From Streptomyces albogriseolus (GTDB lineage: Bacteria > Actinomycetota > Actinomycetes > Streptomycetales > Streptomycetaceae): DNA of 64,000 bases. Position numbers and translations under genes: made by a program. Where the stretch lies: positions 186,001 through 250,000 of the forward strand of contig BMVA01000003.1 in assembly GCA_014650475.1 (NCBI GenBank). Reading direction: 5' to 3'. Below, one piece after another: positions 48,959-53,851 of the stretch; the first letter of the stretch is position 1; each line of letters opens with the position of its first letter. The notes beneath the pieces were generated by a model, which was not told the origin of the DNA, made no database searches, and saw nothing but the letters and a program-made list of their open reading frames with translations.

Positions 48959-49294
48959 TCAGGCACTGCGGGGGGTGGCCGAGATGGTCCGGGGGGGCTG
49001 GGAGTCGGGCTCCACCTGCCGGTGGTCCCGCTGGTCCAGGTTCACAAAGATCATGCCGTACCGGATGGCACACCGGACGGGCTTCGGCGCTCCCCTGGGC
49101 CGGCGCAGGCACCGGTACGCCCGCACGTCGTCGTCCTCCTCGCGGGTGACGACCACGGGCTCACCGAAGACGGTCACCATCAACGAGTCACCGCTGTGGG
49201 GGATGGCGGTGACCAGGTCGATGAAGTGCCATCCGGACCGGTAGGCGGTCGCCATCTCGCGCCGGAAGGAACGATCGTCGGGTGGCGTGGTCAT
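48959..49294 (-). CDS. Truncated Rieske-like protein lacking a complete iron-ligand set
   Basis: A 111-residue protein. The pattern WHFIDLVTAIPHSGD, FGEPVVVTREEDDDVRAY and IRYGMIFVNLD resembles the N-terminal Rieske domain of ring-hydroxylating oxygenases. The first cluster motif C-x-H is CLR at 62-64 (His replaced by Arg), and the loop that should carry C-x2-H is missing, so it probably cannot hold a [2Fe-2S] cluster. The ATG is 3 nt after the stop of the upstream 68-aa peptide gene, so the two are likely co-translated. The Rieske link is my inference from pattern, not from a search. Confidence 0.6.
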   Translation of the reverse strand: MTTPPDDRSFRREMATAYRSGWHFIDLVTAIPHSGDSLMVTVFGEPVVVTREEDDDVRAYRCLRRPRGAPKPVRCAIRYGMIFVNLDQRDHRQVEPDSQPPRTISATPRSA

Positions 49295-49297
49295 CTC

Positions 49298-49504
49298 TCA
49301 GCCCCAACTGCTGTCGTCAGTGGTGCGGGGAGCCACAGGACCCCAGCTGCTGTCCGGGGGCAGGGCCGTCCCCGTCGCGATCGCTCCCCAGCTGCTGTCA
49401 GCCCGGACGTCACCCTCCGCGCCGGCCAGGCCACTCAGCACTCCGAAGGCCATGACGGCGGAGAAGGCGGCGACTAGTACCGAGCGAAGCGTTCTCTTGT
49501 GCAT
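49298..49504 (-). CDS. Secreted peptide with three DSSWG repeats
   Basis: A 68-residue precursor. Residues 1-29 form a classical Sec signal peptide (basic start, hydrophobic core, AGA cleavage site). The ~39-residue mature part contains DSSWG at 36-40, 51-55 and 64-68, the last at the very C-terminus. No cysteines. A GTG at 49522 would add six residues. Tandem short repeats after a signal peptide are typical of precursors cut into small signalling or modified peptides. It is the first gene of a two-gene minus-strand unit, divergent from LuxR-type regulators. Confidence 0.75.
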   Translation of the reverse strand: MHKRTLRSVLVAAFSAVMAFGVLSGLAGAEGDVRADSSWGAIATGTALPPDSSWGPVAPRTTDDSSWG

Positions 49505-49634
49505 GGTCGGCTTCGTCCTCACTCGAAAGTCACCCTTCCCCCGTCACATAAGACGATGGCTCATTCGGGCACGTCATGGCCACACAATCGGTGCATCATG
49601 TTCCTGCATGTTCAGGACCCTGGGGGGTGGAGAT

Positions 49635-50627
49635 TTGACTACAAATCGGACCAACGGCGCACATCCCCATGCGGTGACCGAATTGTGCGAGGCCGGGAGC
49701 AGGTTGTACGGCGACGCCCTCCGCGCGGGCCGCATCCCGCGCGCGGACGTGGAACCCGCTCCCTGCCTCATGGAACTGGCCCTGCTGCACCCCGATCCGG
49801 ACGACCCGAACTGGCTGCGGCCGGTGTCGCCGGCCGTGGCACTCGCCCAGCGGCTCAATCCCCTGGAGCGGGAAATCACGGAACGCCGGCGGATGTCGAT
49901 CGAACTCGCCGACGCGTTCGAGCCGTTCATGGCCCTCAGCGCCCAGGCGACCATGAGCACCGAATCGATGACCGTGCTGGAGGGGTTCGACCGGATCAAC
50001 GCCGCTCTCGACCTGGCCACCTCCCAGTGCCGCTCCGAGATGCTGACCGTGCAGCCCGGCGGCCGCCGCCTGGAGCACACCCTGGCCCAGGCGCTGGAGC
50101 GCGACCGGCAGATGACCGAGCGGGGGGTGCGCATCCGGACCCTTTACCAGCACACCGCCCGGCACAGCCCCGAGACGCTCGCCTACGTGGCGCGGTTCGA
50201 CACCGCGAAGGTGGAGTACCGCACCATCGACGAACTGGTGGAGCGGCTGATCATCTGCGACGAGACCGTCGCCTTCATCCCCATCCGCGAGGACCGGCAG
50301 GTGGCCCTGGAGCTGCGCCACCCGGGCCTGGTGCGCTACCTCATCAAGGTCTTCGAGTTCATGTGGACCCGAGCGGTCTCGCTCGACGCGGGCGCACCCT
50401 ACGAGCCGGCGCCGGACGGTCTCACGGAGGTGCAGCACTCCATCGCCAAGCTCCTCGTGGAGGGCCACGTGGACGAGGCCATCGCCCGCCGGCTCGGCAT
50501 GAACGTCCGCACCTGCCGGGCCCACATAGCCAAGCTGGCCGCCACCCTGGGCAGCGGCAGCCGGGCCCAACTGGGCTACCTCATCGCCCAGTCCGGGATC
50601 CTCGACGAGGACGGCGGCCCCCGGTGA
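49635..50627 (+). CDS. LuxR-type regulator 1 of a three-paralogue group
   Basis: About 330 residues. N-terminal region with LCEAGSRLYGDALRAGR, a central TrmB/PLD-like sensor-like region (LTVQPGG...LYQHTARHSPETLAYV... FIPIREDRQVALELRHPGLV), and a C-terminal LuxR HTH (EAIARRLGMNVRTCRAHIAK). The start is unsure: TTG at 49635 gives MTTNRTNG, ATG 49608 is the alternative. Its stop overlaps the next gene by 4 bases. Divergent from the DSSWG-peptide gene. Confidence 0.85.
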   Translation: MTTNRTNGAHPHAVTELCEAGSRLYGDALRAGRIPRADVEPAPCLMELALLHPDPDDPNWLRPVSPAVALAQRLNPLEREITERRRMSIELADAFEPFMALSAQATMSTESMTVLEGFDRINAALDLATSQCRSEMLTVQPGGRRLEHTLAQALERDRQMTERGVRIRTLYQHTARHSPETLAYVARFDTAKVEYRTIDELVERLIICDETVAFIPIREDRQVALELRHPGLVRYLIKVFEFMWTRAVSLDAGAPYEPAPDGLTEVQHSIAKLLVEGHVDEAIARRLGMNVRTCRAHIAKLAATLGSGSRAQLGYLIAQSGILDEDGGPR

Positions 50628-51622
50628 CCGGCGCGCCGCACGCGGAGCACGGAGCGGACGAGCTGTGCCCGGAGGGGACCGGGCTGTACGAGCGGGCCCT
50701 GCGTGAGGGCCGGCTGGACGCGGGCGAGGCCCAGGCGGCCCCCTGCGCGGTCGACCTGGGCCTGCTGCGGCCCGCCGTGGACGACCGGGACACCCTGGAG
50801 CCGCTGCCCCCGGCGGTCGCCCTGCAACGGCTGCTGCGCCGCTCCGGGGAGCGCATCGCGGCGGAACGGCGCCGCGAGGAATGGCTGGCCGAGACCTTCC
50901 ACGCGCTCATGCGCACCGGTGACGGGCCGCACGGCGAGGCGAGCACGCCCATGCTCTCGCTGCTCAGCGGCCTGGACCGGATCAACGGCGCCATCGCGCA
51001 GGCACTGGCGGAAGGCACCCGGGAAGTCCTCTGCGTCCAGCCGCCGAACCACTACCAGACGTCCGAGTACGCGAGGACGGCCCAGGCCGCGGCCATGGTC
51101 CGCGACCAGCAGTTCCTCGACCGCGGCGGCAGGATCCGGGTGATCTACCCGCACACGCAGCGGCACATCCCCCTGGTCGTCGCCCGGTACGAGCGGCTGA
51201 GGGGCGACGCCCAGGCCCGCACCATGGACGAGGTCACCGGCCGCATGATCATCGTGGACCGGACGGTCGCCTTCATCCCCGGTGACGACGAGGGGCACTC
51301 CGACATCGCGCTGGAGATCCGGCACCCGGCGGTCGTCGACTACCTGGTGAACATGTTCGACCGCTTCTGGCGCCTCGCCACCCCCATGCACCCCCAGACC
51401 GTCCAGCCGCCCTCCCTGGGCGGTGTCACGGCCCGGCAGCGGGCCATCGCGCGGCTGCTGGTCGAGGGGCACACCGACGCCGTCATCGCCGACCGGCTGG
51501 GCATGAACATCCGCACCGCGCGCGTCCACATCGCCAAGCTCGCCGCCACCCTGGGCAGCCAGAGCCGGGCCCAGCTCGGCTACCTCATCGGGCAGTCCGG
51601 GATTCTCGACCGGACAGAGTGA
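50624..51622 (+). CDS. LuxR-type regulator 2 of a three-paralogue group
   Basis: 332 residues, GTG start overlapping the stop of regulator 1 (GTGA). Same three-part layout: LCPEGTGLYERALREGR, the VQPPN/VIYPHTQRHIPLVV/FIPGDDEGHSDIALEIRHP middle, and the HTH AVIADRLGMNIRTARVHIAK. The sensor-like part has diverged more than the HTH (VQPGG became VQPPN), which suggests a different ligand. Its 3' end overlaps the convergent third regulator by 38 bp. Confidence 0.88.
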   Translation: MTGAPHAEHGADELCPEGTGLYERALREGRLDAGEAQAAPCAVDLGLLRPAVDDRDTLEPLPPAVALQRLLRRSGERIAAERRREEWLAETFHALMRTGDGPHGEASTPMLSLLSGLDRINGAIAQALAEGTREVLCVQPPNHYQTSEYARTAQAAAMVRDQQFLDRGGRIRVIYPHTQRHIPLVVARYERLRGDAQARTMDEVTGRMIIVDRTVAFIPGDDEGHSDIALEIRHPAVVDYLVNMFDRFWRLATPMHPQTVQPPSLGGVTARQRAIARLLVEGHTDAVIADRLGMNIRTARVHIAKLAATLGSQSRAQLGYLIGQSGILDRTE

Positions 51623-52616
51623 CCGCGGGGCCCCGGGGCTTGTCCAGACCCGCCTGTGCGATCCGCACCCCCAACTGCGTGCGGCTCGCGGCCCCCAGCG
51701 TCTCCGAGAGGCGGGCGATGTGCGCCCGGCAGGTGCGGACGCTGATGCCGAGGCGTTCGGCGATGACCGCGTCCTGGTGGCCCTCCGCGAGGAGCGCGGC
51801 GATGGACTGCTCGCGGTGCGAGATGCCCTCGATGCCCGTGTCGGGGAGCGGCGCGGTCAGCGGGATGGCGAGCCGCCACAGCCGCTCGAAGACGGTGCCC
51901 AGATACTCCACCAGCGCCGGATGGCGCAGCTCCAGCGCCATCGTGCGCTCGGCGTTGGCGGGGATGAAGGCGACCGTGCGGTCGAAGAGGATGAGCCGCT
52001 CGATGACCTCGTCCAGCGTGCGCGCCTCCACCGCGTCGCCCATCAGCTCCAGATAGCTGAGCAGCCCGTGCCCGTGCCGGGCGACATGGGTGTACAGGTC
52101 CCGCATCCGCACGCCCCGCCCGCGCAGCGCCATCGCCCGGTGCAGGCCCTCCGACAGCTCGGCCTCGCGCCGGATGCCGCCGGGCTGGACGGTGAGCACC
52201 TCGGTGGTGCACGCCTGCGTCGCCTCGTCCATCGCGGCCTGGATACGGGCCAGCCCGTCCAGCACACGGATCGCGGGGCCCTCCGACGATCCGCCCGCGG
52301 CCGGCACCTGGCGGCCGAGACCGGCGTACCACTCGAAGGCGGCGACCGCCGAGCCGACGCGGCGCTGACTCGCCCTCACCTCGTCGTACATGCCGCGCAG
52401 CAGCCGGGTCATGACCTCCTGCGGGGAGGTGGGGACCAGCCAGTCCATGTCGTCCGGGTCGGGGTGCAACAGGGCCAGCTCCAGCAGGCAGGGCACCCGC
52501 TCGGCCTCCCGGCGCGGCAGCCGTCCGCGCCGTACGGCCCGGGAGTACACGCGGTCCCCGGCCTCGCACAGTCGGTCAGCACCGTGCGGATGCTCGTCCG
52601 CCCCGTGCCCGGCCAT
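51585..52616 (-). CDS. LuxR-type regulator 3 of a three-paralogue group
   Basis: 343 residues on the opposite strand with the same layout: LCEAGDRVYSRAVRRGR, then VQPGGIRREAELSEGL and FIPANAERTMALELRHPALV, and HTH AVIAERLGISVRTCRAHIAR. The ATG at 52616 is preferred because sequence upstream lacks the conserved start. It overlaps regulator 2 tail-to-tail. The three genes look like duplicates kept together around the peptide locus. Confidence 0.88.
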   Translation of the reverse strand: MAGHGADEHPHGADRLCEAGDRVYSRAVRRGRLPRREAERVPCLLELALLHPDPDDMDWLVPTSPQEVMTRLLRGMYDEVRASQRRVGSAVAAFEWYAGLGRQVPAAGGSSEGPAIRVLDGLARIQAAMDEATQACTTEVLTVQPGGIRREAELSEGLHRAMALRGRGVRMRDLYTHVARHGHGLLSYLELMGDAVEARTLDEVIERLILFDRTVAFIPANAERTMALELRHPALVEYLGTVFERLWRLAIPLTAPLPDTGIEGISHREQSIAALLAEGHQDAVIAERLGISVRTCRAHIARLSETLGAASRTQLGVRIAQAGLDKPRGPAVTLSGRESRTAR

Positions 52617-52744
52617 CGCCCATCCCACCCCCGGTTCAGCGTCTTTCCGCAGCGCAACTATGCGCGGCCGGAACCTGCTGTGCAACACGGGACAGGCCGC
52701 CGTGCCGGGCCGGGGACCGGCCGGTGGCCGGATTCGTACGGGGG

Positions 52745-53851
52745 TTACTTGAGCCCGATCTCCGCGCACGCGTCCTTGAACTCGCCGGTGCAGATGTCGG
52801 ACACCTCGTAGAAGCCGTCGGCGAGGACGGTGTCCTCCAGGTTGTCCTGGGTCAGCGCGACCACCGGCACCAGCTGCGCCGGGATGTCCTGGTCGGTGGG
52901 GCTGTCGACGCGGTCGCGGGTGAGCGCGTCGAACTGGATGTCGCGGCCCTGGACCTTCGCCACGGCCATCTCCGCGGCGTTCTCGGCCTCTTCGGGGTAG
53001 GACTTGTAGACGCTCATGTACTGCTCGCCGGTCACGATGCGCTGCACGGCGGCGAGTTCCGCGTCCTGGCCGGTGATGGGCGGCAGCTTGGTGACGCCGG
53101 CGGCGCGCAGCGCCTTGACGATGCCGCCCGCCATGCCGTCGTTGGCGGAGTAGACGCCCTCGATGTTCTCCACGCCGATCTCGCCGATCGCCTCGGCCAT
53201 GTTCTTCTCGGCGTTCTTGGGGTCCCAGTCCTTGGTGTCGAAGGACTTGGCGATGGTGACCTTGCCCTTGAGCTCGGACAGCGCGCCGGCCTTGAACTGC
53301 TTGGCGTTGGGGTCGGTGGACGAGCCGTTCATCATCACGACCTTGTCGGTGATGGACAGGTCGCCGCCGAGCGCCTCCAGCAGGGAGCGTCCCTGCACCT
53401 CGCCGACCAGGGCGTTGTCGAAGGAGATGTAGGCGTCGATCGGGCCCTCGGCGAGCCGGTCGTAGGCGATGACCGGGATGCCGGCCTCCTTGGCCTTGGC
53501 GACGCTCTCCGCGATGCCGTGCGAGTCCACCGCGTCCAGCACGATGACGTCGACCTGCTTGTCGATCATGCGCTGCATCTGGGAGGCCTGCTTGTCGGCG
53601 TCCGCCTCGGCGTTGGCGTACTCGACCTTGCCCTTGTTGTCCGTGAGCGCCTCCACCTTCTTCTTGAAGATGGGGTAGTCGAACTGCTCGTAGCGCGTGT
53701 TGGCCTTCTCCGGGAGGAGCAGGCCCACCGTGATGTCGTCGCCCTTGGCGGGGCTGGCGTCGTCGCTGCTGCCCGTCGCGTCGAGCATGCCGCAGCCTGC
53801 GAGCGTGACGGACATGGAGACGGCGGCCACGGATATGGCGATACGACGCAT
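52745..53851 (-). CDS. Sugar-type ABC substrate-binding lipoprotein, orphan
   Basis: A 368-residue periplasmic-binding-protein-like lipoprotein. Lipobox SVTLAGC, with Cys lipidation, then the ITVGLLLPEKANTRYEQFD start typical of the xylose/ribose (XylF-like) group, and DVIVLDAVDSHG. No permease or ATPase gene is next to it, so it either works with a transporter encoded elsewhere or acts as a sensor. ATG 53851 is used. Confidence 0.92.
   Translation of the reverse strand: MRRIAISVAAVSMSVTLAGCGMLDATGSSDDASPAKGDDITVGLLLPEKANTRYEQFDYPIFKKKVEALTDNKGKVEYANAEADADKQASQMQRMIDKQVDVIVLDAVDSHGIAESVAKAKEAGIPVIAYDRLAEGPIDAYISFDNALVGEVQGRSLLEALGGDLSITDKVVMMNGSSTDPNAKQFKAGALSELKGKVTIAKSFDTKDWDPKNAEKNMAEAIGEIGVENIEGVYSANDGMAGGIVKALRAAGVTKLPPITGQDAELAAVQRIVTGEQYMSVYKSYPEEAENAAEMAVAKVQGRDIQFDALTRDRVDSPTDQDIPAQLVPVVALTQDNLEDTVLADGFYEVSDICTGEFKDACAEIGLK

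Follow-up and report, generated by a model that had tools for sequence, protein, structure and literature searches.

In a window of 64,000 nucleotides of Streptomyces albogriseolus (assembly GCA_014650475.1, contig BMVA01000003.1, positions 186,001 to 250,000; coordinates below count from the first letter of this window), we analyzed a locus that encodes a short repeat-bearing precursor, a small Rieske-derived protein and a LuxR-type regulator, LuxR1. These three genes form a conserved unit in most sampled Streptomyces, and one residue of LuxR1 changes together with the second residue of the precursor repeat. A peptide signal with a dedicated receptor is the simplest account, and we consider it quite likely that the locus encodes a peptide pheromone and receptor pair specific to Streptomyces. 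Members of this genus make many antibiotics, and the pair may belong to a peptide language, undescribed so far, that helps to control antibiotic production.

The precursor gene (49298-49522, minus strand; open reading frame and translation) has a GTG start and encodes 74 residues, or 69 from the first ATG. A basic N-region is followed by a hydrophobic stretch and three DSSWG units on the same strand (49385-49399, 49340-49354, and 49301-49315), the third at the exact C terminus, directly before the stop codon. The gene for the 111-residue Rieske-derived protein (48959-49294, minus strand) starts 3 nt downstream. LuxR1 (49635-50627, plus strand, TTG start, 330 residues), the proposed peptide receptor, is divergent from the precursor, with 112 bases between the two starts. 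These positions agree with the initial annotation, made from the window alone, which had described the three repeats, the terminal position of the last one, and the 3-nt gap.

Matches to the Rieske-like protein (E≤1e-3) occurred in 168 of 199 Streptomyces genomes. Ten of these matches were weak (E above 1e-20), four of them in deep-branching genomes that also carry the precursor and LuxR1. For the precursor, a short and variable sequence, 106 of the 199 gave a match. We drew 100 neighborhoods from the 168 positive genomes and added 80 further named loci, the best 80 of 539, which partly overlap with the 100; S. althioticus is the nearest locus among these best 80 (96% for both the Rieske-like protein and LuxR1). 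In the neighborhoods of relatives, the search was confined to eight genes taken from the window. The initial annotation had suggested looking for co-occurrence of repeat precursors, Rieske-like genes and LuxR genes in other Streptomyces, and this is what we see in loci collected by the Rieske-like gene: the precursor is present in 181 of 181, and a LuxR1-type gene lies divergent from or upstream of the Rieske-like gene in all 100 fetched neighborhoods (one, L072, is cut short). The loss of the repeats or of the neighborhood in relatives, which it had named as a reason to abandon the idea, did not occur in the 181 loci.

A sample of 150 genomes of the family gave 32 matches to the Rieske-like protein, 30 in Streptomyces (including the genome of the window); the other two were weak and lay in frames of 431 and 455 residues, as for oxygenases. 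A sample of 296 genomes of the class gave 33, of which 23 were in Streptomyces; the remaining 10 were weak, in frames of 258 to 646 residues. There was no strong match outside Streptomyces in either sample, the first look scoring part of the candidates per genome, and we rejected presence outside the genus since these matches were all weak and in longer frames. As judged by titles and the openings of abstracts in part of the listings of open-licence papers, none describes this system.

In all 181 loci the precursor frame ending near the Rieske-like start contains units of the form [D/E/N]-x-x-W-x, with pentamers such as DSSWG, DTVWS, NSSWP, DSKWD, EPSWG, and DIGWV. With the stricter finders used first, precursors went undetected in 15 of 101 and 30 of 181 loci; they were recovered through reading frames and a looser rule, whose false-positive rate was measured afterwards at five other gene starts. 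Since the finder succeeded in 181 of 181 cases at the Rieske-like start versus 2/177 at clpB, 0/67 at hspR, 1/178 at luxR3, 1/89 at sbp, and 4/178 at luxR1, the finding exceeds chance. The number of copies runs from 1 (45 loci) to 12, and 127 of the 136 multicopy precursors use a single 4-mer throughout. There are 38 leading tetrapeptide types across the 181 loci, and close relatives may differ: two loci with clpB DNA 98.9% identical nevertheless carry DSKWD and DTVWD. Beyond the N-terminal start, 500 of 509 tryptophans fall inside the motif. Precursors starting with RTKP (167 loci) are 54 to 154 residues long (median 72, with some relatives above 100) and have an N-region with a median net charge of 5 and a hydrophobic stretch. 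The precursor stop lies within −10 to +5 nt of the Rieske-like gene in the 181 loci. Mutual information with LuxR1 is 0.31 to 0.41 at the positions flanking the repeat compared with 0.47 to 0.79 at positions 1, 2, 3, and 5, which suggests a repeat unit of five residues.

Evidence for a receptor comes from covariation. For the N-terminal 250 residues of LuxR1, the correlation with peptide type has a rho of 0.54 (161 loci), or 0.52 with clpB distance held, compared to 0.30 for the LuxR1 helix-turn-helix (HTH), 0.30 for the Rieske-like protein, and 0.21 for clpB. Among the 130 loci that have a further regulator, LuxR3, rho is 0.42 for LuxR1, 0.15 for its HTH, −0.10 for LuxR3, 0.06 for the Rieske-like protein, and −0.10 for clpB. 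Tree and residue analyses used 177 of the 181 loci (L072, L175, L201, and L240, in which LuxR1 is cut or overlong, were excluded); the dereplicated set holds 167. LuxR1 residue 136 (Met in the window, codon 50040-50042, plus strand) tracks repeat position 2 (Ser in the window) in 177 of 177 loci, the pairs being Ser-Met, Thr-Val/Leu, Ile/Leu/Val-Val/Ile, and Pro-Leu. The pairing follows size: small Ser goes with large Met; Thr, Ile, Val, and Leu go mostly with Val; and Pro goes with Leu.

Scored as two-state characters (Ser versus any other residue, Met versus any other), position 2 and residue 136 change jointly in 33 of 33 cases when mapped on the clpB tree and in 19 of 19 when mapped on a LuxR1 tree built with five codons removed, corresponding to 26 of 26 and 12 of 12 independent pairs. 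In a screen of 627 and 636 columns of five proteins on the two trees, residue 136 had a co-change score of 1.00 and the next best columns, both also in LuxR1, reached 0.42 and 0.40. The best values elsewhere (clpB tree/LuxR1 tree) were 0.23/0.29 for the Rieske-like protein, none of whose columns thus exceeded 0.29, 0.26/0.29 for LuxR3, 0.29/0.18 for ppox, and 0.26/0.28 for clpB. A rule taken from the first set was then tested on 30 later loci (14 of L264-L280, 5 of L301-L315 with a Rieske-like gene, and L324-L335 minus L335), and all 29 covered residues were predicted correctly. Three of the 17 loci L264-L280 were left out as their genomes had already been used, and the residue of L334 (Phe) was not covered by the rule. 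LuxR1 was less than 95% identical to any used row in 20 of the 30 and at least 99% identical in 5, and the test included four deep-branching genomes (Rieske-like protein 36 to 42% identical) in which LuxR1 has Leu136 and the precursor one C-terminal unit, DPAWD or DPTWG. That LuxR1 evolved to recognize residue 2 of the repeat is, from these comparisons of sequences, close to certain. As a single case, L334 combines a DFGWD repeat with Ala136, and this Phe-Ala pair fits size compensation.

Other core residues show weaker matches, and their recognition by LuxR1 is likely. At position 1, Asp goes with His110 in 126 of 136 loci and Asn with Asp110 in 20 of 22, and Asn goes with Met, Val, Ile, or Leu at residue 145 in 23 of 23. 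At position 5, Pro goes with Gln221 in 44 of 44 and Asp with Arg221 in 32 of 32 (codon 50295-50297, plus strand, Arg in the window). Residue 145 is never Arg or His when position 3 is Lys or Arg, in a small set of 14 of 14 loci. Position 3 as the main specificity site was rejected due to weak coupling.

Two paralogues accompany LuxR1. LuxR2 (50624-51622, plus strand, GTG start) overlaps the LuxR1 stop, and LuxR3 (51585-52619, minus strand, or from a GTG at 52769 with 394 residues) is convergent and overlaps LuxR2 by 38 nt, an arrangement of two coupled divergent genes and a third convergent one that had been described correctly. The accompanying proposal that the LuxR proteins sense the peptide is strongly supported for LuxR1, through its sensor covariation and the co-change of residue 136, but not for the other two. 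We rejected LuxR3 as a receptor because the residue equivalent to 136 is Val in 137 of 139 loci regardless of the peptide, with the negative rho given above, and LuxR2 because it showed no match to the peptide in 113 loci. LuxR2 copy number differs between species. Four LuxR2-type tandem copies stand beside LuxR1 in L101 (G033), and L301-L304 hold three or four LuxR genes in tandem; this multiplication is a sign of turnover in the regulator family.

LuxR1 has a putative TrmB-like N-terminal part, a sensor of predicted phospholipase D (PLD)/TrmB fold at about residues 108 to 253, and a C-terminal LuxR/GerE HTH. Structure comparison of a model predicts a PLD/TrmB-like fold for residues 12 to 250, and the sensor part has alternating strands and helices in the predicted structure. 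A Pfam scan at E≤1 returned HTH families and one weak domain of unknown function only, with no tetratricopeptide repeat (TPR) and no autoinducer-binding domain, and the phospholipase D motif HxK(x)4D occurs in none of 177 LuxR1 rows. LuxR1 resembles archaeal TrmB and TrmBL2 in the predicted fold of residues 12 to 250; it differs from TrmB, whose sugar-binding domain is named in the title of PDB 2f5t, in adding a C-terminal LuxR HTH and in tracking a peptide. The C-terminal GerE/LuxR HTH is shared with the LuxR-type receptors of acyl-homoserine lactones, but the autoinducer-binding domain is not detected and a peptide takes the place of the lactone. Distant LuxR1 relatives (29 to 43% identical) occur elsewhere in Streptomyces genomes at 10 loci (L306-L315); no nearby open reading frame with two identical [DEN]xxW units was found there by a rule that misses single-copy precursors such as those of L301-L304.

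One of the closest known parallels is the RRNPP group of the Firmicutes (Rap, Rgg, NprR, PlcR, PrgX), whose signals are short linear cores, sometimes at the exact C terminus of the precursor, and come in specificity types. The likeness lies in a 74-residue propeptide, within the criterion of 10 to 100 residues, and a 330-residue receptor encoded by adjacent genes. A passage of PMC10075063 describes a small signal-peptide precursor adjoining a cytoplasmic receptor or regulator of 250 to 500 residues, and the same source gives enzyme-made small molecules as the typical signals in the phylum of Streptomyces. Unlike RRNPP systems, the locus pairs a PLD/TrmB-like sensor with a LuxR HTH and has no detected TPR; it was found here only in Streptomyces, adds a third, Rieske-derived protein, and carries up to 12 repeat copies.

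By analogy with RRNPP systems, it is plausible that the precursor is exported and cut down to a short peptide around [D/E/N]-x-x-W-x (in the window DSSWG), which an oligopeptide permease encoded outside the locus would bring back into the cytoplasm. The peptide would then bind LuxR1 at its PLD/TrmB-like sensor, in which residue 136 may form the pocket for peptide residue 2, residues 110 and 145 would face residue 1, and the region of residues 143 to 149 and 221 would face residue 5. Binding would alter LuxR1 activity at the shared divergent promoter and elsewhere, with an output that in S. coelicolor may include repression of actinorhodin, and lineages would differ in their peptide and receptor specificity. 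Alternatively, LuxR1 could read precursor that has not left the producing cell, or fragments of it, and the pair would then monitor export or the state of the membrane instead of other cells. Such reading would yield identical covariation, no importer is linked in the window, and the tight spacing of the precursor and Rieske-like genes permits cytoplasmic assembly. The signal-peptide shape of the 167 RTKP-start precursors argues against it, as do the repeated units and the changes of type between close relatives, which are typical of secreted signals and less so of an internal sensor, and we regard this alternative as unlikely.

Several observations weigh against a secreted peptide sensed by LuxR1. 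The small residues at positions −3 and −1, present in 167 of 167 RTKP-start precursors, come from a lax test without a control. The clpB-hspR interval of the window holds no transporter or protease except a sugar-type periplasmic binding protein. The AlphaFold model of LuxR1 has a predicted template modeling score (pTM) of 0.52, full-length TrmB structural matches have root mean square deviations of 9 to 18 Å, and the candidate operator described below is found only at this locus in the genome. The window's own LuxR1 is an exception at residue 110 (Glu, codon 49962-49964, plus strand), where His usually accompanies Asp and Asp accompanies Asn. The match of position 1 to residue 110 rests on about 6.4 of 7 independent pairs on the clpB tree and on only one on the LuxR1 tree, and that of Pro at position 5 to Gln221 falls from 10.8 of 11 to one. 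Pairing of Val at position 5 with Gly221 (4.2 of 9 on the clpB tree, 0 of 4 on the LuxR1 tree) was rejected. A multistate score favors position 2 alone (0.81), with flanks up to 0.51; positions 1, 3, and 5 reach 0.58, 0.57, and 0.51, with columns other than 110 or 221. Two Rieske-like columns share normalized mutual information of 0.48 and 0.45 with position 2, though they show little co-change.

The 111-residue protein is Rieske-derived by sequence, as had been suspected. It matches the NCBIfam family GbcA (E of 3.3e-07, residues 6 to 69), and all 21 matches of its family profile in the PDB at E≤1 are Rieske-type oxygenases (best 5.7e-05, six below 0.001). The Pfam Rieske match is below cutoff (15.2 versus 20.3 bits), and the predicted structure is poor (pLDDT of 65; best Foldseek match NdmA, E of 0.45). 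The loss of both ligand motifs that had been read from the window needs refining: in the CxH...CxxH ligands both His are replaced by Arg (R64 and R78) in 181 of 181 loci, all of which retain both Cys (C62 and C75). In the four genomes of deep-branching lineages, read by eye, the first Cys is missing as well. Because of the Arg replacements and this further loss, oxygenase chemistry seems unlikely. Its conservation is second only to that of clpB among the aligned proteins, and translation of the gene is probably coupled to that of the precursor. The protein may serve as a conserved accessory factor in the cytoplasm, with LuxR1 or the precursor as its most likely partner. A second Rieske-like copy (L335, G661:C1:212812-213132), 64 to 69% identical, has no LuxR1 upstream.

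The Rieske origin of this neighbor and the variable cores behind a conserved N-terminal part, which recall precursors of ribosomally synthesized and posttranslationally modified peptides, would also suit a secreted antimicrobial or effector, possibly modified via the Rieske-derived protein, with LuxR1 merely an autoregulator sensing the product. We hold this to be distinctly improbable given the ligand losses and the clpB-hspR interval of the window, which holds no further modifying enzyme or exporter except ppox (in relatives the search covered the eight window genes). That the peptide and receptor match reflects nothing but linkage, with neighboring genes exchanged together between species and no recognition, has next to no chance of being right: the genes lie side by side, and matches at positions 1 and 5 drop to one or two independent pairs on the LuxR1 tree, as cassette exchange predicts, but residue 136 keeps its full co-change on that tree, far from the best other LuxR1 column, and the Rieske-like gene, which lies nearer to the repeats than LuxR1, stays at its low peak.

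The pheromone and receptor reading can be connected to S. coelicolor. Genome G648 was taken as this species or a very close strain because its ketosynthase is 100% identical over 206 residues to the actinorhodin ketosynthase of PDB 1tqy. At the corresponding locus (L330, L336) the precursor carries one DTIWS unit, at its C terminus, and LuxR1 has Val136. The possible lengths of LuxR2 and LuxR3, 327 and 394 residues, are those given for SCO3665 and SCO3666 in a passage of PMC3282765; ppox was not found at this locus. Since the Rieske-like protein, precursor, LuxR1, LuxR2, LuxR3, and sbp fit SCO3662 to SCO3667, between clpB (SCO3661) and hspR (SCO3668, both as named in part of PMC2631018), LuxR1 is probably SCO3664 and we infer that the precursor is SCO3663. 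According to PMC6585502, mini-Tn5 insertions in SCO3664, called a regulator, are among those that raise actinorhodin more than 50-fold; a SCO3664 complementation plasmid is also listed there. SCO3662 and SCO3663 had no mention in the open-licence papers searched. An extracellular Streptomyces peptide tied to differentiation, the 655-Da S. coelicolor signal imported by BldK, is described in a portion of PMC9640686; identity with it has no support, unmodified DTIWS having a mass of 620.28 Da.

Taken more broadly, we see as moderately probable a genus-wide Streptomyces language of at least 38 tetrapeptide types, read by a new receptor class for peptides that combines TrmB/PLD-like sensors with a LuxR HTH, specificity set mostly by one residue, and roles in kin recognition and antibiotic gating, DTIWS and SCO3664 being its form in S. 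coelicolor. If true, cheap synthetic peptides could address silent antibiotic clusters, peptide receptors would have a fold beyond the TPR class, and soil bacteria would offer a testable kin-recognition system. The specificity rule yields direct predictions for further sequenced species.

The promoter shared by LuxR1 and the precursor contains a stretch of non-coding DNA of about 40 bases that is strongly conserved in an alignment of 177 loci (49591-49633, limits approximate, no strand assigned), a candidate operator. It includes TTCCTGCATGTTCAGGA at 49601-49617, the only exact copy in the genome. Its pattern occurs at 12 sites with up to 3 mismatches compared to 10 for a reversed control; matches are at control level and therefore give no signal of a wider regulon. 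The stretch also shows an inverted repeat, TCCTG-N6-CAGGA, and a partial direct repeat, CATGTTC.

By Pfam, the flanking genes encode a ClpB-type protein, a small pyridoxamine-phosphate-oxidase-type protein (ppox), a periplasmic-binding protein (sbp), a MerR-type protein (hspR), and dnaJ, the names clpB and hspR being assigned here from sequence and position. Full-length proteins of the LuxR1-3 kind number three in the genome of the window, all at this locus.

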